Source: Cohaesibacteraceae bacterium (lineage in GTDB: Bacteria > Pseudomonadota > Alphaproteobacteria > Rhizobiales > Cohaesibacteraceae). Taken from it: 28,226 bases of DNA. Positions within the stretch are counted from its first letter, which is position 1, and every line of letters begins with the position of its first letter. Positions 1 through 13,758 of the stretch are shown piece by piece. The stretch lies in NCBI GenBank assembly GCA_016764535.1, contig JAESRR010000008.1, forward strand, positions 8,993 to 37,218. Reading direction: 5' to 3'. A program made the position numbers and the translations under genes. Below the pieces are notes generated by a model, which was not told the origin of the DNA, made no database searches, and worked only from the letters and a program-made list of their open reading frames with translations.

Positions 1-548
1 CAGTGATTGAGGTAGTCAAAGAACTTCTCCTCTTCCTTATATGACAAGATACGCTCACGGCCCCCCTTCTCTTTTGAGAATGAGATGTGTGGTTTCTTGT
101 CGATAAACTCTTTTTGAAGAGCAAACTTGAGAACCTTGGAGATCGCTGAGCGCTTACGGTTCAATGTGCTCTGTGAGATAGGCTTCGTAGCCATCATCAT
201 AGTTTCCATCATAAGGATGGACTTGGCGTCCACTTCAACCAACGGGATGTCAGGAGTGATCTGTTCCAAGGTTTCTATGCAATGTCTGATTTGTGCAGCT
301 GCATTCTTGACCGAAGCACCCTCTTTAAGGTCCGGCCAGATGCTGTTGAAGTAGGTATCCACAAAGGCCCTTAAGGTCGGACCGTTGGTAATATCATTCT
401 CGTTCGGAAAAGGTAGCCCCTCTAAGTCTGCTTGCCTAACTGCCTTTTCCCATCTGAGCGCTATATCCTCAGACTTGAACCTCTTACGTTTCCTTATGCC
501 TCCATATGAGGCGTCAGCCATCCATATGCTACCCTGTTTTCTGGCCAT
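1..548 (-). CDS. int: Tyrosine-type phage integrase, N-terminal part (runs off window)
   Basis: This is an open frame of about 182 codons from ATG at 548 down to the window edge, with no stop. The protein starts MARKQGSIW, followed by a basic beta-strand-like stretch (GGIRKRKRFKSED). That is the usual opening of phage tyrosine integrases with an AP2/SAM-like arm-binding domain. Next come a helical core-binding region (about residues 60-150, with a basic STLNRKRSAISKVLKFAL segment) and the ERILSYKEEEKFFDYL linker into the catalytic domain. The catalytic R-H-R-Y residues lie outside the window. The ATG overlaps the 3' end of the regulator gene 529-912 by 20 bases, so the two are probably cotranscribed and translationally coupled. 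AAGGAG directly abuts the ATG, which is tight; the in-frame ATG about 10 codons downstream is an alternative start. Family call is by recognition of the fold signature, not by search. Confidence 0.8.
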   Translation of the reverse strand, partial: MARKQGSIWMADASYGGIRKRKRFKSEDIALRWEKAVRQADLEGLPFPNENDITNGPTLRAFVDTYFNSIWPDLKEGASVKNAAAQIRHCIETLEQITPDIPLVEVDAKSILMMETMMMATKPISQSTLNRKRSAISKVLKFALQKEFIDKKPHISFSKEKGGRERILSYKEEEKFFDYLNH

Positions 549-912
549 CTCCTTTTAGTTCCCTCTTGGTTCCCGGAGTCGTCATGATCTTGTCTATAAA
601 TGCCTCACCCGTGTGAGTTAGCCTGAGCACACGCTTACGGTTATCCTCAGGGTCCATTTCGTTCGTCATGTACTTCATTGCTTTAGACATGGACTTGTGA
701 CCACTGCCCCAATAGCGGACGTTGCGGGAGGCTGTGCCTGATCCCATACCAACTTTCTTTTCCACTAGTTCGGTAGTGCCATGGCCACCTCTGGATACCG
801 CCAGAGCCACTTGGAGCAGGGCAAGAATTGTACCTACCTGCATGTTGTTATCAATGCTGCTGAAATACCCCAGCTGCCTGATTAATTCCTCAATATCACC
901 TGATGCACTCAT
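529..912 (-). CDS. MarR-like winged-helix transcriptional regulator
   Basis: The protein is 127 aa. Residues 23-68 look like the helical core and helix-turn-helix (TTELVEKKVGMGSGTASRNV). Residues 86-103 (MDPEDNRKRVLRLTHTGE) match the wing and following strand of MarR-type proteins, where a D-x-R-x-(K/R)-x-V-x-L-T-x-x-G pattern is typical. The length is that of a small MarR protein, without extra domains. Start ATG is preceded by AGGAAATCCG. The gene directly precedes and overlaps the integrase, so control of integration or of the lysis-lysogeny choice is the obvious role, but that is inferred from position. No classical CI- or Cro-like repressor is seen elsewhere in the window. Confidence 0.68.
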   Translation of the reverse strand: MSASGDIEELIRQLGYFSSIDNNMQVGTILALLQVALAVSRGGHGTTELVEKKVGMGSGTASRNVRYWGSGHKSMSKAMKYMTNEMDPEDNRKRVLRLTHTGEAFIDKIMTTPGTKRELKGDGQKTG

Positions 913-988
913 CGGATTTCCTGACCTCTAACGGGCCCCTTTCCTCATCTCTCCACTAAACTATTTCACTGCGCTGGGAGATTGTCTT

Positions 989-1017
989 CTTATTGCATCA
1001 TTACGTTCACTTGTCAC
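989..1017 (-). promoter_or_regulatory. Candidate sigma70-like promoter for the regulator-integrase pair
   Basis: Reading the minus strand, GTGACA (five of six to TTGACA) is followed after 17 bases by AATAAG (four of six to TATAAT), about 75 bases upstream of the regulator start. Only pattern matching supports it. Confidence 0.3.
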
Positions 1018-1041
1018 TAGGTTAAGTCTCTTATTAACACA

Positions 1042-1284
1042 CTATCTTGGGTGGGATTTTATAATGTGATATTCTGTTATGGTTGTACTAGATGCCATCA
1101 ACTCGAAGGCAGCATTATCAACCTCGTCATATGTCATGTCAGCCGTATGGATGGTGGACAGTATAGCCCCCTCCCCATCGCTGAACTCGACAGTATAGTT
1201 ATTGGTTTCGTTCATATGTATTGTCTCTTGATATTCTACGCCCCTATTCACCGGATACCCAAGGTGAACCCTTGTAGTATCCAT
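1042..1284 (-). CDS. Small hypothetical phage protein
   Basis: Family not recognised. From the ATG at 1284 it is 80 aa; the conserved-looking part is the last 57 residues (YTVEFSDGEGAIL..., then an acidic helix TYDEVDNAAFELM). The ATG at 1284 has AAGGGGAG 11 bases upstream. An internal ATG at 1215 has a weaker AAGAGA 8 bases upstream and would give a 57-aa protein; either may be the true start. A longer reading from a TTG at 1350 has no ribosome site and is not favoured. It lies alone between the palindrome-rich region and the regulator gene, followed by about 130 noncoding bases. Confidence 0.5.
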   Translation of the reverse strand: MDTTRVHLGYPVNRGVEYQETIHMNETNNYTVEFSDGEGAILSTIHTADMTYDEVDNAAFELMASSTTITEYHIIKSHPR

Positions 1285-1350
1285 ACTTTCAACAACTCCC
1301 CTTGAAACACAACAGTCATGTGGCATTACTACAGTGTGGTTCAGAGACAA

Positions 1351-1871
1351 AGGGACTATATTGATTGTTACACTAAGTGATAGGGATCGTGGTTTATATT
1401 ACTAATTGCAATTTCTACTTATTCCAAAGTTCCCTTCTATGATGTTAGTGTTGGTGGTAATTCAGGCCTTCGTGTGACGTCAATTGTATTCCTCATACGC
1501 TGGGGTCCTTATGTTACCTATGGTTTCTTGGGGGGAATTTGTGGCACCCTTTCAGGTAGCCCGTCCAAAGGCCTTGGCAAGCCCCTGTCTATTGCCCTTG
1601 AAGGACACTCTTCCAAGCCAAATCAATGCAGAAATGACCTGTTTAATTTAGCCAATGATTTCAAGGTCTTCTAAATGTCTGCCTATTGTATATATTACTT
1701 ATAGTAACCTATAGAAATCATATGCCCATGATATGAGCCATGAATATGATTCATATTATTTGGTATGGATATTTATAGGAGGATATAAGAGGAAGGAGAG
1801 AGAGTAAGAGATAACTGTAGGGATACATATGTATCTATAGGATCTATAGGTGTCCTATAGGGGCCTCTGAA
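1351..1871. other. Noncoding region upstream of the lysogeny genes
   Basis: About 520 bases with no convincing gene. The only long frame (plus strand, 1474-1674) has a GTG start without a ribosome site and no recognisable product. The left part is of average composition. The right part (about 1681-1860) is AT-rich and full of palindromes and CTATAG repeats, listed separately. A purine-rich run lies at 1776-1810. It could hold operators, attP or a replication signal. Confidence 0.5.
1700..1860. promoter_or_regulatory. Cluster of palindromes and CTATAG repeats (operator or origin-like)
   Basis: A perfect 14-bp palindrome GATACATATGTATC is at 1822-1835, and a 15-bp one with a single central base, AATATGATTCATATT, at 1743-1757. 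CTATAG occurs at 1709, 1835, 1844 and 1855, the last three 9 and 11 bp apart, with TTATAG variants at about 1700 and 1773. Spacing close to one helical turn fits cooperative binding of a dimeric regulator such as the winged-helix protein at 529-912. That is inference; an AT-rich origin or attachment site is also possible. Confidence 0.45.
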
Positions 1872-2045
1872 TCAATACAGGTAGACTGTGGGCTCTTCTG
1901 TAAAGTCCTCAGCCTGTTCATCAGATACAACGGGCCAGATCCAACCATCTGCAATAAACCTATCGACCTCATCCAAGAAGAGCTGGTTATAATCGACAAG
2001 CTTCGTCACAAGCGGAGCCTTGGGTGCTTTAGGGCTCATCATCAT
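1872..2045 (-). CDS. Small hypothetical protein
   Basis: Not recognised. About 57 aa, starting in a run of five ATG codons (2051-2037) that exists because the previous gene ends in a GAT-rich Asp tract read in another frame. The AAGAGG at 2057-2052 best fits initiation at the ATG at 2045 or 2042. The body is APKAPLVTKLVDYNQLF followed by an acidic end with Trp residues (ADGWIWPVVSDEQAEDFTEE). It overlaps the gene 2029-2229 and is probably translated by coupling. Confidence 0.5.
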   Translation of the reverse strand: MMMSPKAPKAPLVTKLVDYNQLFLDEVDRFIADGWIWPVVSDEQAEDFTEEPTVYLY

Positions 2046-2229
2046 CATCATCCTCTTCACAACCTACATACTCTCTGATTGCCAAATTGTACTCGTAATG
2101 CAGCGCCACAGTTTCTCGGGCATAGTTGCCAATGTCTCCTCTGGCTTCCCCTTCCTTGATGCTCTGTAGATGCCGGGCGAAGTCGAGATACTTACCAAAA
2201 GCATTCATTACCTGTCTTCTCGTCTTCAT
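2029..2229 (-). CDS. Small hypothetical protein with acidic tail
   Basis: 66 aa, family not recognised. It begins MKTRRQVMNAFGKYLDFARHLQ, predicted helical and basic, then a helical middle and an acidic C-terminus (CEEDDDDDEP). The ATG overlaps the stop of the preceding gene as ATGA, and GAAGAG lies just upstream, so it is the middle gene of a coupled three-gene set (2411-1872). Confidence 0.6.
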   Translation of the reverse strand: MKTRRQVMNAFGKYLDFARHLQSIKEGEARGDIGNYARETVALHYEYNLAIREYVGCEEDDDDDEP

Positions 2230-2411
2230 TTCTCTTCATTCTCCTCTTCACTGTCCAGAGGCTCATCAGTTTCACTGGCACCATAACTAAGTAGGTTTAC
2301 GGCGCATTCATATGCGTACTCTTCAGCATCGTCTAAATGCTCGAACTCAAGTACTTCTTCTGTATCCGTGCCAGCGTAGCAGGTCCCATAAATCACTTTG
2401 AATTTAGGCAT
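2226..2411 (-). CDS. Small hypothetical phage protein (MPKFKVIYGTCYAG type)
   Basis: 61 aa from the ATG at 2411, which has AAGGAG 10 bases upstream; the frame continues upstream to 2627 but that part looks noncoding and overlaps a hairpin. The protein has a short beta-rich start (KFKVIYGTCYAGTDTEEVLEF), one helix (DDAEEYAYECAVNLL) and an acidic tail. Similar short acidic proteins are common in podovirus early regions; function unknown. First gene of a coupled trio. Confidence 0.6.
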   Translation of the reverse strand: MPKFKVIYGTCYAGTDTEEVLEFEHLDDAEEYAYECAVNLLSYGASETDEPLDSEEENEEK

Positions 2412-2505
2412 GGTGGTTAGTCTCCTTTGATGTTGGCGGTGATAGGAAAGTTGGACGCAATAGAAACTCACACACCTCAACCAAATACCGGCACCCCCCT
2501 CAGGG

Positions 2506-2532
2506 CTGTTATAGGTATCGCAAAAATAACAG
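2506..2532 (+). promoter_or_regulatory. Hairpin with GGTATCGCA in the loop
   Basis: CTGTTAT (2506-2512) pairs perfectly with ATAACAG (2526-2532) across a 13-base loop AGGTATCGCAAAA. The loop contains the same 9-mer that sits in the leaders of several early genes, here on the plus strand. Confidence 0.5.
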
Positions 2533-2640
2533 TGACAGAGAGGGATGCCAGCGTGGCCCCGTGCGTGGTTAGTTGGGAGGAGGATTACACAGGACCGGGT
2601 GTTCTTAGATACTGGATATGAGTCCAAGGATTGATCCTAA

Positions 2641-2730
2641 GAGTCACACAGAGTCATTGAGGGCCTCAGATGACCCGACATAGCCAAAAGTGACAGACCG
2701 GACTCAGTGAGTCTCTGTGGGGTTCCTAGG
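2641..2730. repeat. Intergenic repeat element, copy A
   Basis: The copy consists of GAGTCACACAGAGTC (2641-2655), a spacer, GACTCAGTGAGTC (a 13-bp palindrome at 2701-2713) and CTGTGGGGTTCCTAGG (2715-2730). The same modules in the same order form copy B at 3168-3256. The copy lies just past the stop of the SLOG gene. It may act as terminator, processing site or phage-polymerase promoter. Confidence 0.5.
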
Positions 2731-2743
2731 ACCTCTCGGGTCT

Positions 2744-3121
2744 TTAGGGCGCTGTAGGGTCTAAGGAGGCTACAGGCTTTCCTTGCTTATCAACCATGAT
2801 AATCTTCACTCCAGCCTCCTCGGCTTTCGTGGCCATGTCTCTTGTTTGCCAACCACCCGGCATAACTACGGCAATATCAGGCTTCCCATATCTCAACATT
2901 TTGGTGTTGTTAATTGGTATGGCCTGTTTGCCGTGCCTAGACCAATTTGGAGGATACACAGTACAGGGCAAGCATCTCAACCTAGCAACCACCCCGGATA
3001 ATCTATCGGCACCACATGTCCCACCGTGAATGACGTGGGTTACATCGGGTATCAGGTCCATCACACGTCCAATTACTGCCAAGTCACGATAGCCCCTCCC
3101 ACCGCTAAAAAGCACACGCAT
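2744..3121 (-). CDS. SLOG-superfamily (YspA/DUF2493-type) protein
   Basis: 125 aa, a single Rossmann-like SLOG domain. Visible motifs are the N-terminal strand and glycine loop MRVLFSGGRGYRD (1-13), HVIHGGTCGADRLS (29-42), which is the phosphate-binding GGxxGAD signature, the YPPNWxxHGxxAxPxxNxxML block (56-76) characteristic of this family, and VVMPGGWQTRDM (85-96). Family members bind nucleotides or nucleotide-derived ligands, but no reaction is established. In phages they occur as accessory genes; roles in sensing host nucleotide signals or in counter-defence have been proposed for the superfamily. ATG start with GGGAGG upstream. It stands between repeat elements A and B, as though carried as a cassette. 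Confidence 0.85.
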   Translation of the reverse strand: MRVLFSGGRGYRDLAVIGRVMDLIPDVTHVIHGGTCGADRLSGVVARLRCLPCTVYPPNWSRHGKQAIPINNTKMLRYGKPDIAVVMPGGWQTRDMATKAEEAGVKIIMVDKQGKPVASLDPTAP

Positions 3122-3167
3122 AGTCTGTCCTCCCTTTCATCATTCATAATCAAGAGATTCAAATAGA

Positions 3168-3256
3168 GACTCGCACAGAGTCTTTAGCTCCCAAGGGTAC
3201 GATTGCACCTAAAGAACCCGCATGACTCTGTAAGGACTCCTGTGGGGTTCCTATGG
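3168..3256. repeat. Intergenic repeat element, copy B
   Basis: GACTCGCACAGAGTC (3168-3182, with AGACTC/GAGTCT able to form a stem round GCACA), a spacer, then GACTCTGTAAGGACTC and CTGTGGGGTTCCTATGG (3240-3256). CTGTGGGGTTCCTA is identical in copies A and B, and a shorter form CTGTGGGGTC is at 8633-8642, directly after the large terminase stop. In all three cases the element lies just downstream of a minus-strand stop codon. Confidence 0.5.
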
Positions 3257-3269
3257 CCCATTCTGTGAC

Positions 3270-3638
3270 CTAAGGAGGCTTGGTAACTATCGACCACCCC
3301 TCATTCATGAGCTCCAACATGTGATCCCTTACAGCTTCCCGGGCCGCGGAGTATGCAGGACCCCCCACAGAACATCTCAGGACGTCCACGGTCTCTTCGA
3401 CACCCTCGGCTCCCGTTCGGGTAACCTTGCAAGAATTGTATTCAGCAGTCCCGTCCATCATGTCCACGACAAGGATACGGATCATCTGCCTATGGTCTGG
3501 ATGGGCCAGCAGGAACGTACAGGTCCCGGAGATCTTGGGGAGTGCGTGGGACAGTTGGGTGCATTTGGATGCTTGGGAGGCTTGGGGTTCTGTGGGAGCG
3601 TTGGGGTCTTCAGGGGCCGTTGGATGATAGGAAGCCAT
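3270..3638 (-). CDS. Hypothetical protein
   Basis: 122 aa, not recognised. The first 30 residues are a low-complexity Pro/Ala/Gln/Glu stretch, then a domain with TCTFLLAHPDHRQMIRILVVDMMDG, a central strand-rich part, and a C-terminal helix (AAREAVRDHMLELMNEGWSIV). The ATG at 3638 is preceded by AAAAGGTATCGCAAACCT, a leader shared with three other early genes, which supports this start. The GGxxAYxAAREA pattern does not identify a family. Confidence 0.55.
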   Translation of the reverse strand: MASYHPTAPEDPNAPTEPQASQASKCTQLSHALPKISGTCTFLLAHPDHRQMIRILVVDMMDGTAEYNSCKVTRTGAEGVEETVDVLRCSVGGPAYSAAREAVRDHMLELMNEGWSIVTKPP

Positions 3639-3643
3639 AGGTT

Positions 3644-3652
3644 TGCGATACC
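3644..3652 (-). promoter_or_regulatory. Shared leader motif GGTATCGCA
   Basis: The exact 9-mer lies 5 bases upstream of the ATG at 3638, fused to the AAGG that should pair with 16S rRNA. See the copies at 6066, 6128, 6644 and 7098. Confidence 0.55.
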
Positions 3653-3719
3653 TTTTGTTAGGTGTTGGATGAAATGGGGTGTGAACTTGGTTGACCGCTA
3701 CTCAGCGTCAATTAACAGG

Positions 3720-4028
3720 CTAAATGGATGTATCCAGCCACCTTTTCAGCTTCGTATCTGCGTGTAATCCAACCTTGATAATCCAGTAACAAGTTAGCAA
3801 AATACAATGGGGCCATAAGAGAGCACTGAGGCTGAGGTTAAGTATATATCGCCCTCTGGTCTTGGTTACCCCTAGGTCGAATTCACGCTCTAAATCTTCG
3901 TTACTGTAACCAAGCAACCAAAAACATAGACGCTCAATCACTTCAAGAACGTGTACAATCACCAGACCTGTAAACAGCCATCCGACAACGTAATATTCCA
4001 ATAGAAATTCGAGTAACATCAGGAGCAT
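3720..4028 (-). CDS. Small membrane protein
   Basis: 102 aa, not recognised. A long hydrophobic N-terminal segment (about 4-38), a charged middle (SNEDLEREFDLGVTKTRGR, 42-60) and a second hydrophobic stretch (62-86) suggest an integral membrane protein with two to three helices. GGGAA directly precedes the ATG at 4028, so the ATG at 4019 (9 bases further) may be the real start. It is divergent from the plus-strand membrane protein gene at 4150, sharing a 120-base intergenic region. Confidence 0.5.
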   Translation of the reverse strand: MLLMLLEFLLEYYVVGWLFTGLVIVHVLEVIERLCFWLLGYSNEDLEREFDLGVTKTRGRYILNLSLSALLWPHCILLTCYWIIKVGLHADTKLKRWLDTSI

Positions 4029-4087
4029 TTCCCAAGTTTGTGGTGAAGATTGAAATAAGGGTAATTGTTCAACTCAACTCGTAAACG

Positions 4088-4117
4088 TTGCAATCAACGA
4101 CCATCTACCGTTAATAT
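4088..4117 (+). promoter_or_regulatory. Candidate promoter for the plus-strand gene
   Basis: TTGCAA, an 18-base spacer and TAATAT, each four of six to the sigma70 consensus, lie about 30 bases upstream of the GTG at 4150 in the divergent intergenic region. Moderate match only. Confidence 0.35.
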
Positions 4118-4149
4118 GGTCATGGGCAATTAATGGGAGGAGCTAAGTT

Positions 4150-4641
4150 GTGGGCAGTGATAAGAAGTTCAATGAGTTGAGTGAAGAGGATATCCAGACG
4201 CTTCTGGGGGATGCCGAGAGGAACCCAAGGAACGCCGGAAACCTTGAGGTCTTGAGGGACCGTGGAGGACGCTTGCCCACTTGGGAGAACTTCAAGACGC
4301 TTAAGAAACGTGAACCACTCTCGGTGTCCATCAACTTTGATGTTGAGCTGAAGGTATACAGTGGCCTTACAGCTAACGCTTATCCTTCAATCACCAACTT
4401 CATGATCCTGATGTACAACTTGGTGCTCGTGGTAACTGTTCCGTTAGCCATATGGCTCTGGTGGGCAGGTCATATGAATGCTTGGGTTACAGTGATAGGC
4501 ACATTGTGTGCACTCGTGATCTTCAAGCAACTGGAGACATGGACAAGAGCACAAGCAACACGAAAGTTGGCCATGAAGGAAGCGTATCCTTACTACTACG
4601 CGTTAGCTCATGGGTTCTTCAGGTTCCATGGGTTGCCGTGA
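4150..4641 (+). CDS. Two-helix membrane protein, only plus-strand gene
   Basis: 163 aa from a GTG at 4150 with GGAGG 11 bases upstream. The first 80 residues are soluble and charged (NELSEEDIQTLLGDAERNPRNAG...). Two transmembrane helices follow at about 84-106 (rich in Leu, Val, Trp) and 111-128, then a basic amphipathic stretch (TWTRAQATRKLAMKEAYPYYY). Family not recognised. It points against all neighbours, has its own promoter candidate and is closed by a strong two-way terminator, so it is an independent transcription unit. Genes of that layout in temperate phages are often expressed from the prophage, for example for superinfection exclusion; here this is only inference. Confidence 0.75.
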   Translation: MGSDKKFNELSEEDIQTLLGDAERNPRNAGNLEVLRDRGGRLPTWENFKTLKKREPLSVSINFDVELKVYSGLTANAYPSITNFMILMYNLVLVVTVPLAIWLWWAGHMNAWVTVIGTLCALVIFKQLETWTRAQATRKLAMKEAYPYYYALAHGFFRFHGLP

Positions 4642-4651
4642 ATGTAGTGGG

Positions 4652-4699
4652 AAATAAAGAAGCCCTCGCCACAGGTTCACTGTAGGAAGGGCCTTATTT
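4652..4699. terminator. Bidirectional terminator between convergent genes
   Basis: AAATAA (4652-4657) pairs with TTATTT (4694-4699), GCCCT (4662-4666) with AGGGC (4688-4692), and ACAG (4671-4674) with CTGT (4680-4683). The A-rich left arm and T-rich right arm let it work for both the plus-strand gene ending at 4641 and the minus-strand gene ending at 4852. Confidence 0.65.
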
Positions 4700-4711
4700 G
4701 GTGCTGATCAA

Positions 4712-4723
4712 CCGCTTTCGCGG
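4712..4723. terminator. Short GC hairpin in convergent intergenic space
   Basis: CCGC-TTTC-GCGG, a compact stem with a tetraloop, followed on the plus strand by CGGCTTGTT. It may back up the terminator at 4652-4699. Confidence 0.35.
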
Positions 4724-4851
4724 CGGCTTGTTAACGGGCACATATTGCAGTGAACTGCTCACCACCCGCAACTACAAACTACCTTAGTAGTACCAGTACA
4801 GATAGATTAGTCATTTGCAACTCAACCGTCAAGCTATTTAGTTATTTAGGT

Positions 4852-5070
4852 CTAATAGCCAGCTTTCTCAGCAAGGGCTACACCCTTCTTTAAGATAGCT
4901 ATGGTTTCAGTCACATCCTTTTTTGCATCTACTGAAACGATTTTATTAAGAAGTCTCTCCTCGTAGTCTGCTATAGCGTCCAATGCTTCATCTTTGGAGT
5001 AAGCCACACTACTAAGCCCTTCATCGTAAACAACAATAACACCATCCTCGATAACTGGATAACTGGACAT
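4852..5070 (-). CDS. Small hypothetical protein
   Basis: 72 aa, not recognised. It has a short beta hairpin (YPVIEDGVIVVYDEG, 4-18) followed by two helices (KDEALDAIADYEERLLNKI and KDVTETIAILKKGVALAEKAG). The start is well supported by AAAGGAG nine bases before the ATG. Last gene of the minus-strand early run before the convergent plus-strand gene; it follows ArdA after about 70 bases. Confidence 0.6.
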   Translation of the reverse strand: MSSYPVIEDGVIVVYDEGLSSVAYSKDEALDAIADYEERLLNKIVSVDAKKDVTETIAILKKGVALAEKAGY

Positions 5071-5139
5071 ACTTAGTTGCTCCTTTGTTGTTGCTGATCA
5101 GAAGATCATGAACCGATAGATCTGTAGGGGGAAGTAGCC

Positions 5140-5754
5140 CTAGCAGTTATGGAACACATGGCCCCCTCGGACCCCTGAAACATAGTAATCTGTACAAGCC
5201 CAATCACGCGCCATGGCTTCCCAGTCTATGTAGTACTGGAGGGCATCAGGGATTGGGTCGTAACATTCTTCGTAAAGCTCTTGGACATAGTCAGCAAAGT
5301 TCTCATGGTAGCCACAGTAAGCTTCCCTGAACTCTTCGACATCCGGTGGTGAGGTTTCACCCCTCCAACTCATGTACTCACAATATGCTTCCCATTCGTC
5401 GTCGTCCGACATCTCTTCATAAGCAACAGCGAATTCAATGATTGTTTCAAACGAGGTGTATTCACCAACGTATCCTTGAGGAAACCCTTCGTGGTCGTGG
5501 ATAGCGTGTTCGTTAAGCCCCGAGGTTTCACAATCGCTCTTGCCTAGCAGTTTACGTTTATCAATCTCTTCCCAGATCTCATCAACATCAGTCATGTTGG
5601 TAACGTCGATCCAGCCTCCTTTAAGGCTCCCGCTAACATATGCAGTCAGATCGGCTACATAGATACGCAGGTCACCATCAGTGGAACTAAGGTCAACTGT
5701 AGGAAGTGGCTTGGTAGCCGTGAGGTCAGGTGGTGTTGTTGGGGTAATATTCAT
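5140..5754 (-). CDS. ardA: ArdA-type antirestriction protein
   Basis: 204 aa, very acidic. After a roughly 27-residue Thr/Pro-rich leader come family hallmarks: LRIYVADLTAYVSGSLKGGWID (29-50), the AIHDHEGF block (84-91), GEYTSFETIIEFA (97-109), EWEAYCEYMSW (120-130), EEFREAYCGYHENFADYVQEL (140-160) and the C-terminal PDALQYYIDWEAMARDW (169-185) followed by a GG-HVF end. ArdA proteins mimic B-form DNA and occupy type I restriction enzymes, protecting incoming phage DNA. The ATG overlaps the previous stop as ATGA, so it is coupled to gene 5751-6062. Placement among the first early genes matches the need for immediate expression, as for the unrelated DNA mimic Ocr of T7. Confidence 0.92.
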   Translation of the reverse strand: MNITPTTPPDLTATKPLPTVDLSSTDGDLRIYVADLTAYVSGSLKGGWIDVTNMTDVDEIWEEIDKRKLLGKSDCETSGLNEHAIHDHEGFPQGYVGEYTSFETIIEFAVAYEEMSDDDEWEAYCEYMSWRGETSPPDVEEFREAYCGYHENFADYVQELYEECYDPIPDALQYYIDWEAMARDWACTDYYVSGVRGGHVFHNC

Positions 5755-6062
5755 GAAAGGTCGCCCCCATAAATATATGTTTCTTTAAGGCCGCCACCGT
5801 CAGAGAGACCAACCAGATAAGCCTCAACTAATGGAAACGCTTCACACTCAGGCACAGGCTCAGGTCCAAGCGGGTAAATCACATCCCCATTTTTAGCTAT
5901 ATATCTTGCTAATCTACACCCGCTGACAAGGTCGAAATGATTAAAATAATGACCAACATTTGAACTTGACGACCCGTTTCTAAATCCTTCTTCCGGGCTT
6001 CCTGTAAATCTATTTAATGCGTCTATAAGGGTCTTGAGATCTTCCAGAGTATATTTAATCAT
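5751..6062 (-). CDS. Hypothetical protein coupled to ardA
   Basis: 103 aa, not recognised. N-terminal helix (YTLEDLKTLIDALNRF), a Gly/Ser-rich central part, and a C-terminal part containing LVEAYLVGLSDGGGLKETYIYGG. The ATG at 6062 carries the AAAAGGTATCGCAACC leader. It ends in ATGA with ardA, so both are made from one message; a role alongside ArdA is possible but not shown. Confidence 0.6.
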   Translation of the reverse strand: MIKYTLEDLKTLIDALNRFTGSPEEGFRNGSSSSNVGHYFNHFDLVSGCRLARYIAKNGDVIYPLGPEPVPECEAFPLVEAYLVGLSDGGGLKETYIYGGDLS

Positions 6063-6065
6063 GGT

Positions 6066-6074
6066 TGCGATACC
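6066..6074 (-). promoter_or_regulatory. Shared leader motif GGTATCGCA
   Basis: Exact copy just upstream of the ATG at 6062, in the frame AAAAGGTATCGCAACC-ATG. Only about 55 bases downstream of the hairpin that shows the same 9-mer in its loop. Confidence 0.6.
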
Positions 6075-6115
6075 TTTTGATTTTGTTTAATAATCACAGT
6101 GCGGGGTAACGTACT

Positions 6116-6146
6116 CAGCCAGTCCAATGCGATACCGGACTGGCTG
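6116..6146 (-). promoter_or_regulatory. Perfect 10-bp hairpin with GGTATCGCA in the loop
   Basis: CAGCCAGTCC (6116-6125) pairs with GGACTGGCTG (6137-6146). On the minus strand the 11-base loop reads GGTATCGCATT, which contains the leader 9-mer. No U tract follows, so it is a poor terminator; RNase III processing or protein binding is more likely. Confidence 0.55.
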
Positions 6147-6151
6147 TGGTT

Positions 6152-6182
6152 GAAGGCCGGGAGGTACGAACTCCTAGCCTTC
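6152..6182 (-). promoter_or_regulatory. Second intercistronic hairpin
   Basis: GAAGGC pairs with GCCTTC, then after a 2x2 internal loop GGAG pairs with CTCC around a 7-base loop (TTCGTAC on the minus strand). It stands directly upstream of the 6116-6146 hairpin in the early transcript. It superficially resembles a tRNA T-arm but no complete tRNA is present. Confidence 0.45.
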
Positions 6183-6232
6183 TTCCCCCGTGATTTCTCT
6201 GTGGGTGAGTAGTTTAGACAACTTCGGTAATC

Positions 6233-6436
6233 CTAAGGTTCTGTGTCTACCTCAACATTACAAATTCCAGACCAGTCACAAGCTTCTCGCAACTCATCAA
6301 TACTCATGTTGGTCACATGATCCATTAAGCTGGACCTGAGCTTTCCCAACACAATACCACCAGCGTTAGGAAGTTTGGAAGTCACTCTGAATGACCCATG
6401 GAAATCATACATATGATCAAACTTAAACTTGGTCAT
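6233..6436 (-). CDS. Small hypothetical protein
   Basis: 67 aa from the ATG at 6436, chosen because AGGAGG lies eight bases upstream and the ATG overlaps the stop of the preceding gene as ATGA; an upstream in-frame start at 6466 lacks such support. Begins MTKFKFDHMYDFHGSFRV, ends with an acidic segment (SIDELREACDWSGICNVEVDTEP). Not recognised. Confidence 0.55.
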   Translation of the reverse strand: MTKFKFDHMYDFHGSFRVTSKLPNAGGIVLGKLRSSLMDHVTNMSIDELREACDWSGICNVEVDTEP

Positions 6437-6636
6437 AACAATTGCCTCCTGCCCCTTCGCTGCCACTCAGCTCTATAATTGATTTCATGGTTGCCAGAGG
6501 TTCTTACGGTCCTCCTTCGATACCTGCGTTGTTGATCATGCTTGGCAGCGATGGCCGCGATGATGCCCATAGTGACCATGAGGGTTCCTATGAGTGCCCC
6601 GGCGTACTGGAGGTACTGTGTGTCTGAGATTTCCAT
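6433..6636 (-). CDS. Small single-helix membrane protein
   Basis: 67 aa from the ATG at 6636. One transmembrane helix (about residues 12-33, AGALIGTLMVTMGIIAAIA) is followed by a strongly basic cytoplasmic-type tail (KHDQQRRYRRRTVRT... RRGRR). The start at 6636 is preferred over 6690 because the leader AGAGGTATCACAAGCCATC precedes it, a one-base variant of the shared leader. Function unknown; coupled to the following gene. Confidence 0.55.
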   Translation of the reverse strand: MEISDTQYLQYAGALIGTLMVTMGIIAAIAAKHDQQRRYRRRTVRTSGNHEINYRAEWQRRGRRQLL

Positions 6637-6643
6637 GATGGCT

Positions 6644-6652
6644 TGTGATACC
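6644..6652 (-). promoter_or_regulatory. Variant leader motif GGTATCACA
   Basis: One-base variant of GGTATCGCA about 8 bases upstream of the ATG at 6636. It supports that start. Confidence 0.45.
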
Positions 6653-6734
6653 TCTTGATGTTGATTGTTAACCCAGAAGATGGGTTTCATGATGTGTCTC
6701 TTGCTATGTTATATTCACAATACCTATGCTGCGC

Positions 6735-7094
6735 TTATGATGCGTAACTTGGTAACGATGGTTCGCCCGCCGCGATGTATAAATCTTTGAAATCCCCAAT
6801 TTCTTCAAAGTTCCAATCAATAATTAAGGACATTTCTTCCGCGTATATCTTCGCGATCTTTAACGTTCTTGCCAGACCTATACCATTTAGCACTGAACTG
6901 CCTGTTGTCGCATGTGTAACGACCCATCCATTAGCGTCATCTAACCGACGATGAATAACAAACTCTCCTAATGCGTAGGCATCAAGCTCGCGAGAATCTT
7001 TACCGCTTTGCATTGCCTTGCCGGGGATTTTGTATTTGGTTTTGACCCATTTGGTGGCGGCGGCGGCTGTTGTGTTGGAGATGTTGGCTGTCAT
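6735..7094 (-). CDS. Hypothetical early protein
   Basis: 119 aa, not recognised. It has an Ala/Thr-rich start, then a beta-rich domain with YALGEFVIHRRLDDANGWVVTHATTGSSV (41-69), one helix (GLARTLKIAKIYAEEMSLI) and a C-terminal part with WNFEEIGDF. The look is of a compact ligand- or protein-binding domain. The ATG is preceded by AAGGTATCGCAACC. Second gene of the early run. Confidence 0.6.
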   Translation of the reverse strand: MTANISNTTAAAATKWVKTKYKIPGKAMQSGKDSRELDAYALGEFVIHRRLDDANGWVVTHATTGSSVLNGIGLARTLKIAKIYAEEMSLIIDWNFEEIGDFKDLYIAAGEPSLPSYAS

Positions 7095-7097
7095 GGT

Positions 7098-7106
7098 TGC
7101 GATACC
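7098..7106 (-). promoter_or_regulatory. Shared leader motif GGTATCGCA
   Basis: Exact copy just upstream of the ATG at 7094 (AAGGTATCGCAACC-ATG), identical over 14 bases to the leader at 6062. Confidence 0.6.
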
Positions 7107-7160
7107 TTATGTCTGGATGAATAGTTGAAGTGATGGAGGGAGGCTTGTTGGGACCCCTCG

Positions 7161-7322
7161 CTAATACCCAAGAGCCGCAAGGACCTTGGAGGCCTCAATG
7201 ACCCTGAAACCGTCCGGGAAATCAGACTTCAATTCAGCCTCATTCAACCCGTGTGATTTGTACTCACGGACTGCCCTTGCCCAATCGATTTCAACAAGCT
7301 CTGAACTCTCTAAGTAAGTCAT
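7161..7322 (-). CDS. Short hypothetical protein, first early gene
   Basis: 53 aa: an acidic-amphipathic protein (MTYLESSELVEIDWARAV...) with a helix-loop-helix look and ending EASKVLAALGY. The ATG at 7322 has GGAG eight bases upstream. It is the first gene after the long noncoding region in the direction of transcription, so probably the first expressed. Not recognised; its support is the good ribosome site and coding-like composition. Confidence 0.6.
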   Translation of the reverse strand: MTYLESSELVEIDWARAVREYKSHGLNEAELKSDFPDGFRVIEASKVLAALGY

Positions 7323-7795
7323 TATCAATTCTCCAAATGTATGAATTATAAGTGTTATTCACTCTACAATTACAGGTGGACTCACGTATGGACTCTATGC
7401 ACTAACGCAGTGTTTACCACAAACGAAGACTAAAGAACGTCCGTTCTCATGGTGTATTTAGGTAGTCAATATTGTGCTTGTTACTAGCCATCCAAATCAA
7501 TGGCCACATCTATCGAGATAGCTAGAATACAAGAACAATACTCGATTACTGGTAGACTTTATTCAACTAAAGTAGTCAGGCGATTTGTTACATTTATTCC
7601 AATGGTGCCACCTAACCGCTGGGCACCGTGGGACCTATTTAATTATCAAAGAGCCTAAGAGTAAGAAGTCCTCTTAGATCGAGATCACGTTGATTAGCCT
7701 GTTTGCTGCAACAACTGTTTCGATGTCACCAATAGATATCAATGCACTTGTGAAGTCAATCGCTAATTGTAATTCAAACTGGAAACAGCCTGAAA

Positions 7796-7836
7796 GTGAT
7801 TCAGTGATTGCGTGAGTAAAGCGTGAATGTGCGTGA
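7796..7836 (+). repeat. Phased GTGA/GCGTGA direct repeats
   Basis: GCGTGA at 7810-7815, 7821-7826 and 7831-7836, spaced 11 and 10 bp, preceded by two GTGATT units. Same-face spacing suggests a protein-binding array, such as an iteron-like or packaging-related site. Confidence 0.4.
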
Positions 7837-8151
7837 TTAATTTCCAAATAACCTAATGATTACTGTGGGTTGATTCGGCCACCAAACGGATTCAACACGT
7901 TTAGCGAGGCTGTGGGTAACCATGTGAATAACTATGATTAAGCGTTATAAACCCTAACTTATCGCCAGCGGTAATTTGGGAGCCTATAGCTCATATGGGC
8001 TACGTAATGCCCCGTATACTAGCTATACGCGCGTTAGGTGTTACGTCATGTCAATACAAAAAATGTGGGGGAGTTTGCATGATTCCAAATATATGGATGA
8101 CTAGTGCAGTCATATACAAACTATTAAGACAAGATAACATATGAACTAGAT

Positions 8152-8179
8152 ATTATATCTGGTAAGGAATGGCTGTAAC
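8152..8179 (-). promoter_or_regulatory. Candidate early sigma70-like promoter
   Basis: On the minus strand GTTACA (four of six), a 16-base spacer and a perfect TATAAT. It points toward the early genes, as expected for a host-polymerase early promoter. Confidence 0.4.
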
Positions 8180-8336
8180 CCTAGGCTACCAGTGCACCAA
8201 TGGCACAAAGGTATGCCATGACCCCCATATGTGACCTCACCCCTATAGGAAAACAGCCAGAGCTAATAGGGGTACGGGGGGTGTTGTTGTCTCATATATA
8301 CGTATTCATCTACACACATTTTCTACAGAAACATAT

Positions 8337-8445
8337 GGCCCCCAAGGCACCCTCAGGAACCTCAAGGCCCTCACAGCTCCCCCAAGATCCCCAAGGAATC
8401 CCAACGGACCCTCAAGACCCCCCAAGACCCCACAGGACCCCCTCA
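8337..8445. repeat. C-rich degenerate CCCCAAG/CCTCAAG tract
   Basis: About 110 bases made of loosely repeated CCCCAAGG, CTCAAGAC and CCAAGACC units with almost no G runs on the plus strand. A plus-strand frame through it gives only Pro/Ser-rich low complexity. It resembles in position the short repeats flanking T7 terminal repeats. Confidence 0.4.
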
Positions 8446-8544
8446 TAATCATCATGAACCCTTCACTAAGAGAACCTTGGGTCTACATCCAGTATTAACA
8501 TCAATGTACAACCTCAAGGCCCCCTAAGAACTTCTAAAGAAGCC

Positions 8545-8628
8545 CACAGGACTCCATACAGACTCGTAAGCCCTTTTGGAGTCCTGACATACCTGGTTTT
8601 GCCTAAAGGCGCTGTATGGAGTCCTGTG
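8545..8628. repeat. Perfect 17-bp inverted repeat after the terminase gene
   Basis: CACAGGACTCCATACAG (8545-8561) is the exact reverse complement of CTGTATGGAGTCCTGTG (8612-8628), with 50 bp between, which themselves contain TTTTGGAGTCCTGAC. It could be a late terminator, a recombination site or a terminase recognition feature. Confidence 0.55.
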
Positions 8629-8644
8629 AGTCCTGTGGGGTCAT

Positions 8645-10324
8645 TTAGGTATCTACCCAAGTGTTATTTCCACGGCTCCCACCGGTCCCCCCAGCACTGT
8701 CAATGAACTTCAGAAACTCTTCATCCATCAGCCTCATGTACTCGTCTTCAGCTGCCCTCTTGGAATCCTGATTCATGAGCTCTGTGAAGTGAGCAATGAG
8801 GATAGCCATGACATCGATACGATCATCGAACCTCAAGGCCCCCTTCTCCCTGCAGATGTGGGTCATCTGGTAGAACAGTGAGCGTGAGTTCCTGATTGAA
8901 GGTTCGTACTTCTGGATGGATTGATCATCTTTGCTGAGGACATCAGGGTCCACTATGAGCCTGTGACCGGACACCACGGGTTCCATGGTATCTATGATCC
9001 TCATCTCTTTCATCGTGTGATGACGAACTTCCTCAATAGTACAAGGATGTTCTCTGTTGAGGAAAGGTTCAAAGAGCTTGGCGAACATACCGTCACCAAA
9101 GTTGCTCTCAATGACAATGCAATGGACCTTATGCTTCTTGGCGATCTTGGCCAACACTTGAAGTGTCTCGGGCTCATAGCCCCCTGTGAGACCACCGGCC
9201 TCAGGGACCCATACGTTCCCTGCTAACTGAAAACCTACAGCGTAGCCTGTCTCGTCCTTGCCTCTACCTGAGGGATCAATAGCCATGACCCTTAATTGGT
9301 ACTCATCAAACTCATTCCCATGGCTTGCTACACTGAACAGCTTGTCCCCGGCCATCCCGTGGTTCGGGAGATCCTTGAGTTGTCTGTCAGGATTGGGGAG
9401 CCAATGGACTTCTATAGGTGCCCTTAACGGAGGCACGGGCATCACTATTAGGTCTTTGAGTTTGAGAGGATATCTCTCTTCGTCAGAGAGCTTGGTGTTG
9501 AGCATGAACTGAAGGGAGAACCCTGCAGCTCCGTACTCTGCCCTACGATCCTGAAGCTCCTCTTCATCGAACCTCTCAGGGTCCGTAGGGACTCCGTACA
9601 GCCCCTTGTCGTACATGGTTCTGATAAGGGGAGCCAAAGAGCTACCATAGGCCTCTACCTCTTCTGAGGTGGGCACATAGGCAGGCCATATTCGGTTAGT
9701 GAATGTCTCTGGTAGTTTGTTGTAGATACTATCCTCAGTTTGAGGCGTACCAAGGTAGATGATCCTAGAGTTCTCAAGGGGTTTCAGGATCGCTGAGTAC
9801 TCTTTGGTTCTCTCTATGAGAGCGTCACGTCTTTCGACGGTCATGGAGTTGTTGGGGACTTCAACGTCATCCGAGATAATGATGTCAGCACGACCCCCGG
9901 TCAGCTGGGAATCAATCCCTTTGGAGAAGACTGAAGGGGTCTGATCAGGAAGAGCTGGACCTACATCAAATTCAAGACGTGATTGTCTTTGAGATGCCTT
10001 GGGCTTCAGGTGGACTAACTCTGGTACAGTGTTAATAAGATTGAGGGCAAAGGTAGTAAAGTTATCCGCTCTGTTCTTAGAGGCCGATACCACCATAATC
10101 TTGTTTTGAGGATCTCTGTAAAGCTCCCAGAGGACGTAGGCAGAGGTCACGAATGACTTACCAACGCCCCTGAACGCTTGTATGCAAATCTTGTTAGGAC
10201 CGTGCTGCAGGAAGATCGCCAGATCAATCTGGACCTTGGTAGGCTTGGGGAGGTTTATCTGTTCCCAGATGAAACTAAGGAAGACCCTGAAGTCCTCCTT
10301 GAGAGGATCTTTGACTATGATCAA
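8645..10324 (-). CDS. terL: Terminase large subunit (T7 gp19-like)
   Basis: 559 aa, close to the 586 of T7 gp19 and similar along its whole length. It is the ATP-driven DNA packaging motor and headful/concatemer nuclease. ATPase: Walker A RGVGKS (52-57), Walker B ADIIISDDVE (146-155), coupling motif YLGTPQTE (190-197). RNase H-like nuclease: AIDPSGRGKDETGYA (348-362), ESNFGDGMF (406-414) and DDRID (500-504) supply the metal ligands. The start is a TTG at 10324: no ATG is in frame nearby, the leader is pyrimidine-rich and no ribosome site is visible. It follows terS after 41 bases and is the last late gene. Confidence 0.96.
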   Translation of the reverse strand: MIIVKDPLKEDFRVFLSFIWEQINLPKPTKVQIDLAIFLQHGPNKICIQAFRGVGKSFVTSAYVLWELYRDPQNKIMVVSASKNRADNFTTFALNLINTVPELVHLKPKASQRQSRLEFDVGPALPDQTPSVFSKGIDSQLTGGRADIIISDDVEVPNNSMTVERRDALIERTKEYSAILKPLENSRIIYLGTPQTEDSIYNKLPETFTNRIWPAYVPTSEEVEAYGSSLAPLIRTMYDKGLYGVPTDPERFDEEELQDRRAEYGAAGFSLQFMLNTKLSDEERYPLKLKDLIVMPVPPLRAPIEVHWLPNPDRQLKDLPNHGMAGDKLFSVASHGNEFDEYQLRVMAIDPSGRGKDETGYAVGFQLAGNVWVPEAGGLTGGYEPETLQVLAKIAKKHKVHCIVIESNFGDGMFAKLFEPFLNREHPCTIEEVRHHTMKEMRIIDTMEPVVSGHRLIVDPDVLSKDDQSIQKYEPSIRNSRSLFYQMTHICREKGALRFDDRIDVMAILIAHFTELMNQDSKRAAEDEYMRLMDEEFLKFIDSAGGTGGSRGNNTWVDT

Positions 10325-11205: not shown

Positions 11206-11877
11206 TTATGACCTGCTCTTGTTGAGTTGGAAGATTGCTTTGAAGATCGCTACGATTAGCCGTATCCACCATGCAGATTTCTTAGGGGCCTTTGGGGTAA
11301 CCTTAGGAGCCTTTATTACGACTTCCTTAGGTGCATTCATGGCACTCAGGAGAGCCTCTTGGAACTTGAGGGCATACGTGGCAATGGTCGAAGCTTTGTC
11401 CATACCGTTGACGATACGTCGGGCCTGTTTGTAGGAGGAATGTTGGCATGTAGGAGACTTGAGATACCTCTTGAGCCTCTTCCCTGTGAACATACCCCGT
11501 TCCATGCCCTCATAAATAACCTGAGCGGCTATGCTAGGGTCATTGGCGAGTTCAGGGTTCCCCTTGAGATCCAAGTCGAGGAACTTCCCCATCTTGATAT
11601 AGTTATAGTCCCAAGTGAGCTGAACGTACCCACGGCCAATGAATGGCCAGTAGGTCTTACCAGTAAGATACGCCTTGGAGCCATACTCAGTCACGGGCTG
11701 CATGGTGTACGCTGTCTCATGCCACGCCGTAGCGAGCACGTAAGCGATCCATGAGGTCGGCAGGTCCCGTTTGACCCCTTCATCCAGAAGGATATTAAAG
11801 CCGTCTACTTGGGCTTGAGAGAGCTTGAGGAGCTTAAGGTGCCCTCGGACCTCTTTGAAGAATACGCGTCTGTTCAT
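11206..11877 (-). CDS. Endolysin, GH19 chitinase/lysozyme-like, with hydrophobic C-terminus
   Basis: 223 aa. Residues 20-160 are a GH19-type catalytic domain: AWHETAYTMQPVTEYG (51-66; E54 and E64 likely acidic catalytic residues), YWPFIGRGYVQLTW (76-89) and NPELANDPSIAAQVIYEGMERGMFTG (107-132). GH19 phage lysins cut peptidoglycan glycan strands. A Pro/Lys/Ala linker (181-200) is followed by SAWWIRLIVAIFKAIFQL (201-218), an amphipathic or membrane-embedding helix that is unusual for this family. No N-terminal signal is seen, so export should depend on the holin. The ribosome site is weak. Confidence 0.87.
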   Translation of the reverse strand: MNRRVFFKEVRGHLKLLKLSQAQVDGFNILLDEGVKRDLPTSWIAYVLATAWHETAYTMQPVTEYGSKAYLTGKTYWPFIGRGYVQLTWDYNYIKMGKFLDLDLKGNPELANDPSIAAQVIYEGMERGMFTGKRLKRYLKSPTCQHSSYKQARRIVNGMDKASTIATYALKFQEALLSAMNAPKEVVIKAPKVTPKAPKKSAWWIRLIVAIFKAIFQLNKSRS

Positions 11878-11911
11878 TATCGTTTCGTGTGTAATGAATC
11901 ATCTTGTTGAT

Positions 11912-12139
11912 TTATAGCGAGGCATCAGAGCCCTCATCGTCCTCTTGAGACCTCCCAAGATGCCCCGGGTCTATCTTTTCAAGGATGCATGCCAGAGGCT
12001 TCCAGTACCATTTGTGCCTGTTCTTGGAACATCGGCTTGAGATGGTTTCATCAGGATCACCCCCAAGGACTGTGTTGAGGAGTTGATCAAGGGCAATGAG
12101 GATGTTGAGGAAGTAAGCTTGAAGGAACTTTAAGACCAC
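11912..12139 (-). CDS. Small conserved phage membrane protein
   Basis: 75 aa from a GTG at 12139, which has GAGG seven bases upstream and overlaps the stop of the preceding gene. A longer frame to 12271 is inside the previous gene and rejected. The first 24 residues form a hydrophobic helix (FLQAYFLNILIALDQLLNTVLGG), followed by GGDPDETISSRCSK and a CILEKIDPGH segment, then an acidic tail. Proteins with the LNxLIAxDQLxNxLLGGDPDETxSSR signature are frequent beside phage lysis genes; their role is unknown. Confidence 0.72.
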   Translation of the reverse strand: MVLKFLQAYFLNILIALDQLLNTVLGGDPDETISSRCSKNRHKWYWKPLACILEKIDPGHLGRSQEDDEGSDASL

Positions 12140-12558
12140 CAAGTGTCCTCTTGGAAATTGGATGGAATTGGGTTCATGGTTTGGAGCGCATTGCTCTTGT
12201 CCAAGGTAAGCTTCAGGGCACTTCGGGTCTGCCTGAGTATTAAGGCCCTCGCGGTTTGCTCTGAGGACCATGTGCCACCTTCAAGTCGAATGTCCTGAAG
12301 AGCCACGGCCTCCTCAACTCCCAAGGAGCGCTTGTAATCAAGGTCCTTGGTACTTGAGGAGGCTGTGAGACCCATGAGTACCTTGCGTCTCCTTAGACAC
12401 TCGGCTTTCACATCATCAATAGTTGGTTCAGGTTCTACAAACACACCACTCACATACAACCAGCCCGGACCAACTTCACCAGCCCATTGAATGGAACCAT
12501 CAACGAATTTCTCATGGATTTCATCTGCTACGCTATTACGTACAATCACGTAGTTCAT
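12130..12558 (-). CDS. Tail fibre assembly chaperone-like protein
   Basis: 142 aa. The N-terminal half contains IQWAGEVGPGWLYVSGVFVEPE (23-44), the W-x(n)-G-W-x-Y-x-x-G-x-F motif shared by phage fibre-assembly and tail-chaperone proteins, followed by a helical part with a basic RRRKVLMG segment and RQTRSALKLTL. It overlaps the fibre gene as ATGA, the normal arrangement for a fibre and its dedicated chaperone. Confidence 0.65.
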   Translation of the reverse strand: MNYVIVRNSVADEIHEKFVDGSIQWAGEVGPGWLYVSGVFVEPEPTIDDVKAECLRRRKVLMGLTASSSTKDLDYKRSLGVEEAVALQDIRLEGGTWSSEQTARALILRQTRSALKLTLDKSNALQTMNPIPSNFQEDTWWS

Positions 12559-13733: not shown

Positions 13734-13758
13734 ATCGAGACTACCTTAATGTATTGAA

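Follow-up and report, generated by a model that had tools for sequence, protein, structure and literature searches.

The window analysed here is a stretch of 28,226 nucleotides from a Cohaesibacteraceae bacterium (assembly GCA_016764535.1, contig JAESRR010000008.1, positions 8,993 to 37,218). It is part of a 70,376-base contig (C5), in a genome of 302 contigs and 3.86 Mb. The window carries a prophage that reads as a temperate T7-like phage. On the minus strand, PHROG matches make up a T7-like set: portal, scaffold, capsid, tail, tail fibre, endolysin, holin and TerL. The early region (ca 8 kb) extends between TerL (end 8645) and the regulator/integrase end. Within it, a 9-mer, GGTATCGCA, lies just before the start codons of genes A, B and C, and the complement of this motif occupies the loop of a hairpin located downstream of these genes (Table 1).

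A motif repeated at early gene starts

Five exact copies of GGTATCGCA are found in the window, versus 0.17 expected, and none of 100 shuffles reaches five. They all fall within 2.5-7.1 kb, in the early region, at 2514 on the plus strand and at 3644, 6066, 6128 and 7098 on the minus strand. These copies, as well as the related GGTATCACA at 6644, had been listed in the original prediction and were all recovered. The same prediction placed four copies 3-8 bases before start codons. This holds for three exact copies (3, 3 and 5 nt); the fourth, at 7 nt, carries one mismatch. In the leaders of genes A, B and C, the motif is joined to AAGG. A stretch of 16 nt, GGTATCGCAACCATGA, is common to leaders A and B. 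Such a repeat, within a few nucleotides of several starts and over the ribosome site (three exact leaders and one with a single mismatch), has the layout of a start-associated sequence (SAS).

When one mismatch is allowed, nine copies are found in the window versus 3.65 expected, a total reached by 3 of 100 shuffles. Thus, only the exact copies stand out. GGTATCGCA is the commonest 9-mer within 1-8640 (five copies), and other 9-mers reach seven copies across the whole window. What is exceptional is the placement of the motif, not its count alone. In the whole genome, GGTATCGCA occurs 60 times versus 20 for the backwards pattern. The context was viewed for 20 of these 60 copies; eight of the 20, found on two contigs, have a single repeated coding-like context in common. 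Contig C5 has a sixth copy, at 58110, inside a chromosomal open reading frame (ORF). Genome-wide, the pattern AGGTATCGCAN{0,8}ATG matches five times (backwards control, one), at the three phage leaders and at two other sites whose ATG frames run for 80 and 14 codons.

Two hairpins and the predicted pairing of one loop with the leaders

Two copies of the motif had been described as lying in the loops of perfect stems. The stems, of 10 bp (6116-6146) and 7 bp (2506-2532), are confirmed, but only one loop displays the motif itself. On minus-strand RNA, the copy at 6128 reads GGUAUCGCA in its loop (fold of 6104-6158, z score -3.2). In contrast, the plus-strand copy at 2514 reads UGCGAUACC in gene-sense RNA, the complement of the leader motif, because the genes lie on the minus strand. 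The larger hairpin around it, 2480-2560, folds at -37.9 kcal/mol on the minus strand (z score -4.17, 0 of 200 shuffles as good) versus -24.8 kcal/mol on the plus strand (z score -1.64). Five of its 26 pairs are G-U and are lost on the opposite strand. With this strand-specific fold and these G-U pairs, the preferred reading of 2480-2560 is an RNA of the minus strand that carries an antisense loop.

Within 1-8640, only five distinct hairpins combine a perfect stem of 7 bp or more with a loop of 9-14 nt, and two of these hold the 9-mer in the loop. Positions where a 9-mer is wholly inside such a loop amount to 0.12% in 20 shuffles and 0.22% in the real sequence. By simple, post hoc arithmetic, two of five copies would be found there about 1-5 times in 100,000. 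When the minus strand is folded in sliding 60-nt windows, the two motif hairpins rank fourth and fifth among the regional local minima. The small number of hairpins, the low loop coverage and these fold ranks argue, in what is a post hoc test, against a placement due to many weak hairpins. The arm and loop at 2506-2532 are identical to the complement of leader A (7088-7107) at 17 of 20 positions. This segment looks as if it derived from an inverted copy of leader A.

The loop 2513-2525 is complementary to leaders C, B and A over 12, 11 and 11 nt, respectively. Among 2145 start windows (all starts of frames of at least 40 aa, both strands of contig C5), these leaders are the best three, at -18.7 (C), -17.8 and -17.8 kcal/mol; the next one is at -15.7. 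Although the complementarity itself follows from the exact repeat, none of 2000 loop shuffles comes within 2 kcal/mol on all three leaders. With leader A, the match is not confined to the loop but takes in the stem arm and the AUG, with 18 of 20 positions paired (17 Watson-Crick and one G-U), an extension that is not implied by the 9-mer repeat. The predicted duplexes reach -22.3, -19.4 and -21.1 kcal/mol with A, B and C (duplex and opening energies are taken here and below as separate terms, not as net values). The GGTATCACA leader at 6644 gives a weaker predicted duplex, -13.1 kcal/mol, and other early starts (D, ArdA and the ORF at 2744-3121) give -8.8, -8.0 and -8.5 kcal/mol with the hairpin.

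Table 1 Positions of the genes, motif copies and hairpins of the early region
Feature	Position	Strand	Evidence or remark
Tyrosine integrase	1..548, runs out of window (contig C5 8518-9540)	-	adjoins tRNA-Leu(tag)
Phage transcriptional regulator	529..912	-	PHROG 9665, E 2.3e-12; beside integrase
Gene D, 60 aa, 3' of hairpin 2480-2560	2226..2408	-	weak PHROG 1997 match, E 0.00034
Proposed antisense RNA hairpin, extended stem with internal loop	2480..2560	-	fold energy and shuffles
Apical part, 7-bp perfect stem and 13-nt loop 2513-2525	2506..2532	-	loop shows UGCGAUACC
Gene C, 122 aa, no known family	3270..3638	-	PHROG/Pfam and protein searches
Sense copy, gene C leader	3644..3652	-	5 nt before ATG 3638
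ArdA-family anti-restriction gene	5140..5754	-	Pfam PF07275, E 9e-32; PHROG 2059
Gene B, 103 aa, no known family	5751..6062	-	stop overlaps ArdA start (ATGA)
Sense copy, gene B leader	6066..6074	-	3 nt before ATG 6062
Hairpin, perfect 10-bp stem, loop 6126-6136	6116..6146	-	gene B leader; sense motif 6128-6136 in loop
Small ORF, 67 aa from ATG 6636	6433..6636	-	in-frame ATG also at 6690
One-mismatch copy GGTATCACA	6644..6652	-	7 nt before ATG 6636
Gene A, 119 aa, no known family	6735..7094	-	PHROG/Pfam and protein searches
Sense copy GGTATCGCA, gene A leader	7098..7106	-	3 nt before ATG 7094; overlaps TAAGG

Besides these features, an ORF of 834 aa, the size of a T7-like RNA polymerase, is located at the opposite end of the prophage. 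A 163-aa frame on the plus strand (4150-4641), opposite to its neighbours, contains hydrophobic stretches and has a weak PHROG match (E 0.0052); it is possibly a gene expressed in lysogeny. Long early leaders hold GGCTCTTTGATAATT- and GTTCTTTGACAT-like sequences, in the window at 7640-7700 and in a related Maritalea prophage (L110, see below) at 12610-12630 and 12850-12870. We take these sequences to resemble rRNA boxA antitermination elements.

Related prophages and cluster K mycobacteriophages

Genes A, B and C found only themselves among 5.8 billion proteins. No relative of A and B was found in viral contigs, nor of B in phage records. TerL has an identity of at most 55% among the best 80 of at least 600 matches in viral contigs. 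In three sets of 61, 397 and 385 whole genomes, it is matched in 2, 4 and 2 genomes, own genome included. GTDB contigs contain 25 TerL loci, the best one (69% identity) in Maritalea. In this Maritalea mediterranea prophage, the integrase likewise adjoins tRNA-Leu(tag), and the regulator is 47% identical to that of the window over 94 aa. The prophage has start repeats of another kind (L110 numbering, within 11709-16389): CTACGATAACGGAGG is exact at 12521 and 13651 and has two mismatches at 14468; two start codons are preceded by it, and it recurs at one further site. A palindromic sequence, ACGTTAACGT, occurs at 11710, 16107 and 16378, near the regulator and after TerL. Both repeats are probable operators. 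The best reverse copy of the Maritalea start repeat (12742-12757, 12 of 14 positions) lies outside any loop.

Eleven viral-contig stretches containing the 17-mer AAGGTATCGCAACCATG were considered as relatives and rejected: nine have a coding-like context in common, and a second GGTATC[GA]CA is absent from all eleven. In a T7-like viral contig (L038, 11359-14346; TerL 52% identical), another repeat, TCATCACTGGAGA, precedes seven early ORFs, with three exact copies and four having 1-3 mismatches. Five of these seven leaders are predicted to fold into the same hairpin shape, hiding the ribosome site. The L038 repeat region has no match in phage records.

A closer likeness to the arrangement in the window is found in cluster K mycobacteriophages. 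According to the available part of the original description, their SAS is a repeat of 13 bp that overlies the ribosome site in many non-structural genes, and Anaya, Adephagia, Angelica and CrimD each have a single SAS in the opposite orientation with no obvious gene start (PMC3203893). The repeat was described in 2011 (PMC3203893), and its role was still called unknown in 2024, in the text available from that report (PMC11373665). In Adephagia 20001-59646, we count 16 sense SAS and one reverse copy (at most two mismatches). The reverse copy, which lies in the gap from gene 92 to gene 93 and downstream of all 16 sense copies, is in the loop of a strong hairpin of the gene-sense strand. This conserved hairpin with an anti-SAS loop (Adephagia 58640-58725; L144 38640-38725) lies near the right end of K1 genomes. 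Both of its strands fold well (-48.7 and -44.4), so that the hairpin favours one strand less clearly than its counterpart in the window does. In Anaya, the reverse SAS is likewise in a hairpin loop of gene-sense RNA. The hairpin region matches 177 phage records, several of which annotate a hypothetical protein across it. In an alignment of 11 loci, which left out Keshu and MarkPhew as they have no loop, 5 of 22 pairs show a two-sided change in at least one sequence. Among 15 cluster K loci, seven have the exact 10-nt anti-SAS core, five have a changed, pyrimidine-rich loop in the same hairpin, and in three (Keshu, MarkPhew and Pixie) no anti-SAS loop was seen. Shaobing has the exact core, but the best fold of its fragment does not form this hairpin. 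The altered loop of Unicorn pairs better than 497 of 500 shuffles. Outside cluster K, ten SAS-like copies, none of them with more than one mismatch, are present in the Microbacterium phage AnnaSerena. As far as these genomes tell, the parallel is real for K1 and is no general law.

A screen of 110 sequences for the architecture of the window recovered the window. Outside GC-rich actinobacteriophages, it retained only L133 and L134, each with one GC-rich 9-mer. When the sequences were reversed, 4 of 110 matched, all of them large GC-rich phages. Adephagia is missed by the screen because a 7-bp perfect stem is required and the Adephagia stem has 6. In the literature that we could search, which leaves out the majority of subscription papers (the ZoeJ study among them), nothing in print connects SAS with an antisense hairpin.

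A putative antisense RNA and the alternatives

We propose that the prophage encodes a structured antisense RNA that would repress a small early regulon, in the way of the C4 RNA of phages P1 and P7; in our estimate, this proposal stands an even chance of being correct. The hairpin 2480-2560 would be transcribed leftwards, either with the early operon or with the regulator/integrase end. Its 13-nt loop would pair with the motif where it covers the Shine-Dalgarno sequence and spacer, best in genes A, B and C and more weakly in the gene starting at 6636. In gene A, the start codon would be covered too. With the start regions hidden, translation would stop and the early regulon would be silenced. 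The ATGA overlap brings the anti-restriction gene within this regulon: translation of ArdA is likely coupled to that of gene B, and ArdA would be silenced along with it. Because the hairpin follows every sense copy in the direction of transcription and comes shortly before the regulator/integrase end, its RNA would appear last, as a delayed shut-off or as a silencer linked to lysogeny. The sense-loop hairpin in the gene B leader may provide a second landing site or a decoy.

The original prediction had envisaged a regulator of early translation, either a protein in the manner of T4 RegA or a small RNA. The small-RNA half is supported by the antisense loop, by the strand-specific fold and by the ranking of the three leaders above all other start windows. 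No sign of a RegA-like protein turned up: none is named among the PHROG matches of 27 scanned ORFs, and no search aimed at RegA was made. The orientation of the copy at 2514, antisense to the genes, and its place in a strand-specific hairpin loop make the case for a small RNA stronger than was known when the prediction was made. The earlier observation is thus partly confirmed, and a small RNA able to switch off a gene set, which is a prediction from sequence, is the explanation that we prefer, while judging it about equally open to belief and doubt.

C4 is a structured phage RNA whose loops pair with target leaders, one of them occluding a ribosome site, and in the available text it has three stem-loops with two different recognition loops (PMC5320573). 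Similarly, the loop 2513-2525 is complementary to the ribosome site of its targets, and the hairpin lies in the same transcript direction as these targets. Here, however, a single loop faces several separate leaders through one motif. C4 acts on one operon, as an RNA of about 77 nt processed by RNase P. Like the window motif, the cluster K SAS is a short asymmetric repeat at the ribosome site; almost every copy has the same orientation, and K1 phages have just one reverse copy. It differs by its 13 bp, by its 11-19 copies per genome, by the promoter-associated ESAS repeats and by its occurrence in unrelated phages and hosts; in the part of that report available, the reverse copy is not linked to a hairpin (PMC3203893). 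The window motif is not the cluster K SAS proper, since it does not fit the consensus GGGATAGGAGCCC: it is a different motif, in a T7-like prophage. Temperate T7-like phages of the LUZ100 type share the T7-like order, the regulator and integrase, and antisense transcripts, but these transcripts are, in the available text, opposite structural genes, unlike a loop directed against early leaders (PMC10134795). VpdS and PreS are phage-encoded, trans-acting small RNAs that regulate by pairing, as proposed here. However, their targets include host mRNAs, VpdS is Hfq-dependent, and the text available describes no set of identical start motifs in their own phage (PMC12197685).

Several observations weigh against the proposed RNA. 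No promoter-like site is found just upstream of 2480-2560; the nearest one on the minus strand, at 2980-2951, falls within an ORF. Nor is the hairpin followed by a terminator-like site. Rfam gives no match for it; a cmscan of window 1-9000 to E 5 returned two unrelated matches and no C4. No close relative of the phage was found, which leaves covariation of loop and leaders without a comparison. The Maritalea prophage has no copy of GGTATCGCA in the 21.6 kb examined and no comparable antisense hairpin. Full opening of the 6116-6146 hairpin costs 20.0 kcal/mol versus -16.8 kcal/mol for the duplex, which makes the decoy idea weak, at least for full opening as distinct from a loop-only kiss. In cluster K, the loop is changed and the SAS unchanged in 3 of 3 genomes checked, so that there is no strict co-change. 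In AnnaSerena, no antisense copy within two mismatches is seen in 50,000 of 56,707 bases.

Shared 9-mers at starts are not rare by themselves: one is common to at least three starts in 16 of 65 comparison loci. Given this frequency, and since the finding was picked after the fact, a good ribosome site might have been kept in three leaders, with hairpins there by accident. Five exact copies versus 0.17 expected, the loop placement and the fold of 2480-2560 on one strand make chance very improbable. The resemblance between the hairpin and leader A, and the 16 nt shared by leaders A and B, also suit a recombination linker, or a leader that was duplicated and spread in this way or by module exchange, the hairpin being an inverted leader A devoid of regulatory function. 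An inverted copy alone would give neither the long flanking stem of 2480-2560 nor the 10-bp stem of 6116-6146, and we hold this origin to be quite unlikely.

The motif might otherwise act as a start-associated sequence, alone or by binding a phage or host protein at the ribosome site, as cluster K SAS or T4 RegA targets would, the antisense loop then being incidental. Copies 3-7 nt before ATG, over the Shine-Dalgarno sequence and conserved beyond it, agree with such a role. SAS occupy the same position in the published description available (PMC3203893), and the sense motif in the 6128 loop would suit an RNA-binding protein. Since the fifth, antisense copy in a strand-specific hairpin loop is left unexplained, this appears unlikely, if the least so of the alternatives. 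DNA operators or stoperators of the phage regulator, at short intergenic sites, would account for asymmetric intergenic copies mostly in one orientation. The Maritalea prophage, with its different start repeat and its operator-like palindromes near the regulator, keeps this explanation alive. The motif, however, is no palindrome and has no copy close to the regulator start (912). No repeated palindrome links the upstream regions of the regulator and the putative RNA polymerase, and the placement in hairpins is unexplained; we consider operators improbable.

To our knowledge, the phage antisense RNAs described so far mostly act on one gene or operon. If the antisense RNA proposed here exists, one phage RNA would reach a set of the phage's own genes by way of an identical motif at their starts. 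This would be an economical means of timing early shut-off, and an anti-restriction gene would be among the genes shut off. More tentatively, and with a likelihood that we would put rather low, an antisense hairpin facing identical start motifs might be a recurrent means of phage control that arose independently in a temperate T7-like phage and in K1. The repeat would then mark a regulon, the single downstream reverse copy would encode a shut-off RNA, and SAS would be landing sites for a small RNA. The finding offers a concrete and cheap test of the role of SAS in cluster K mycobacteriophages. The proposed RNA is a variant within phage antisense RNAs, with a testable link to the SAS question in mycobacteriophages.

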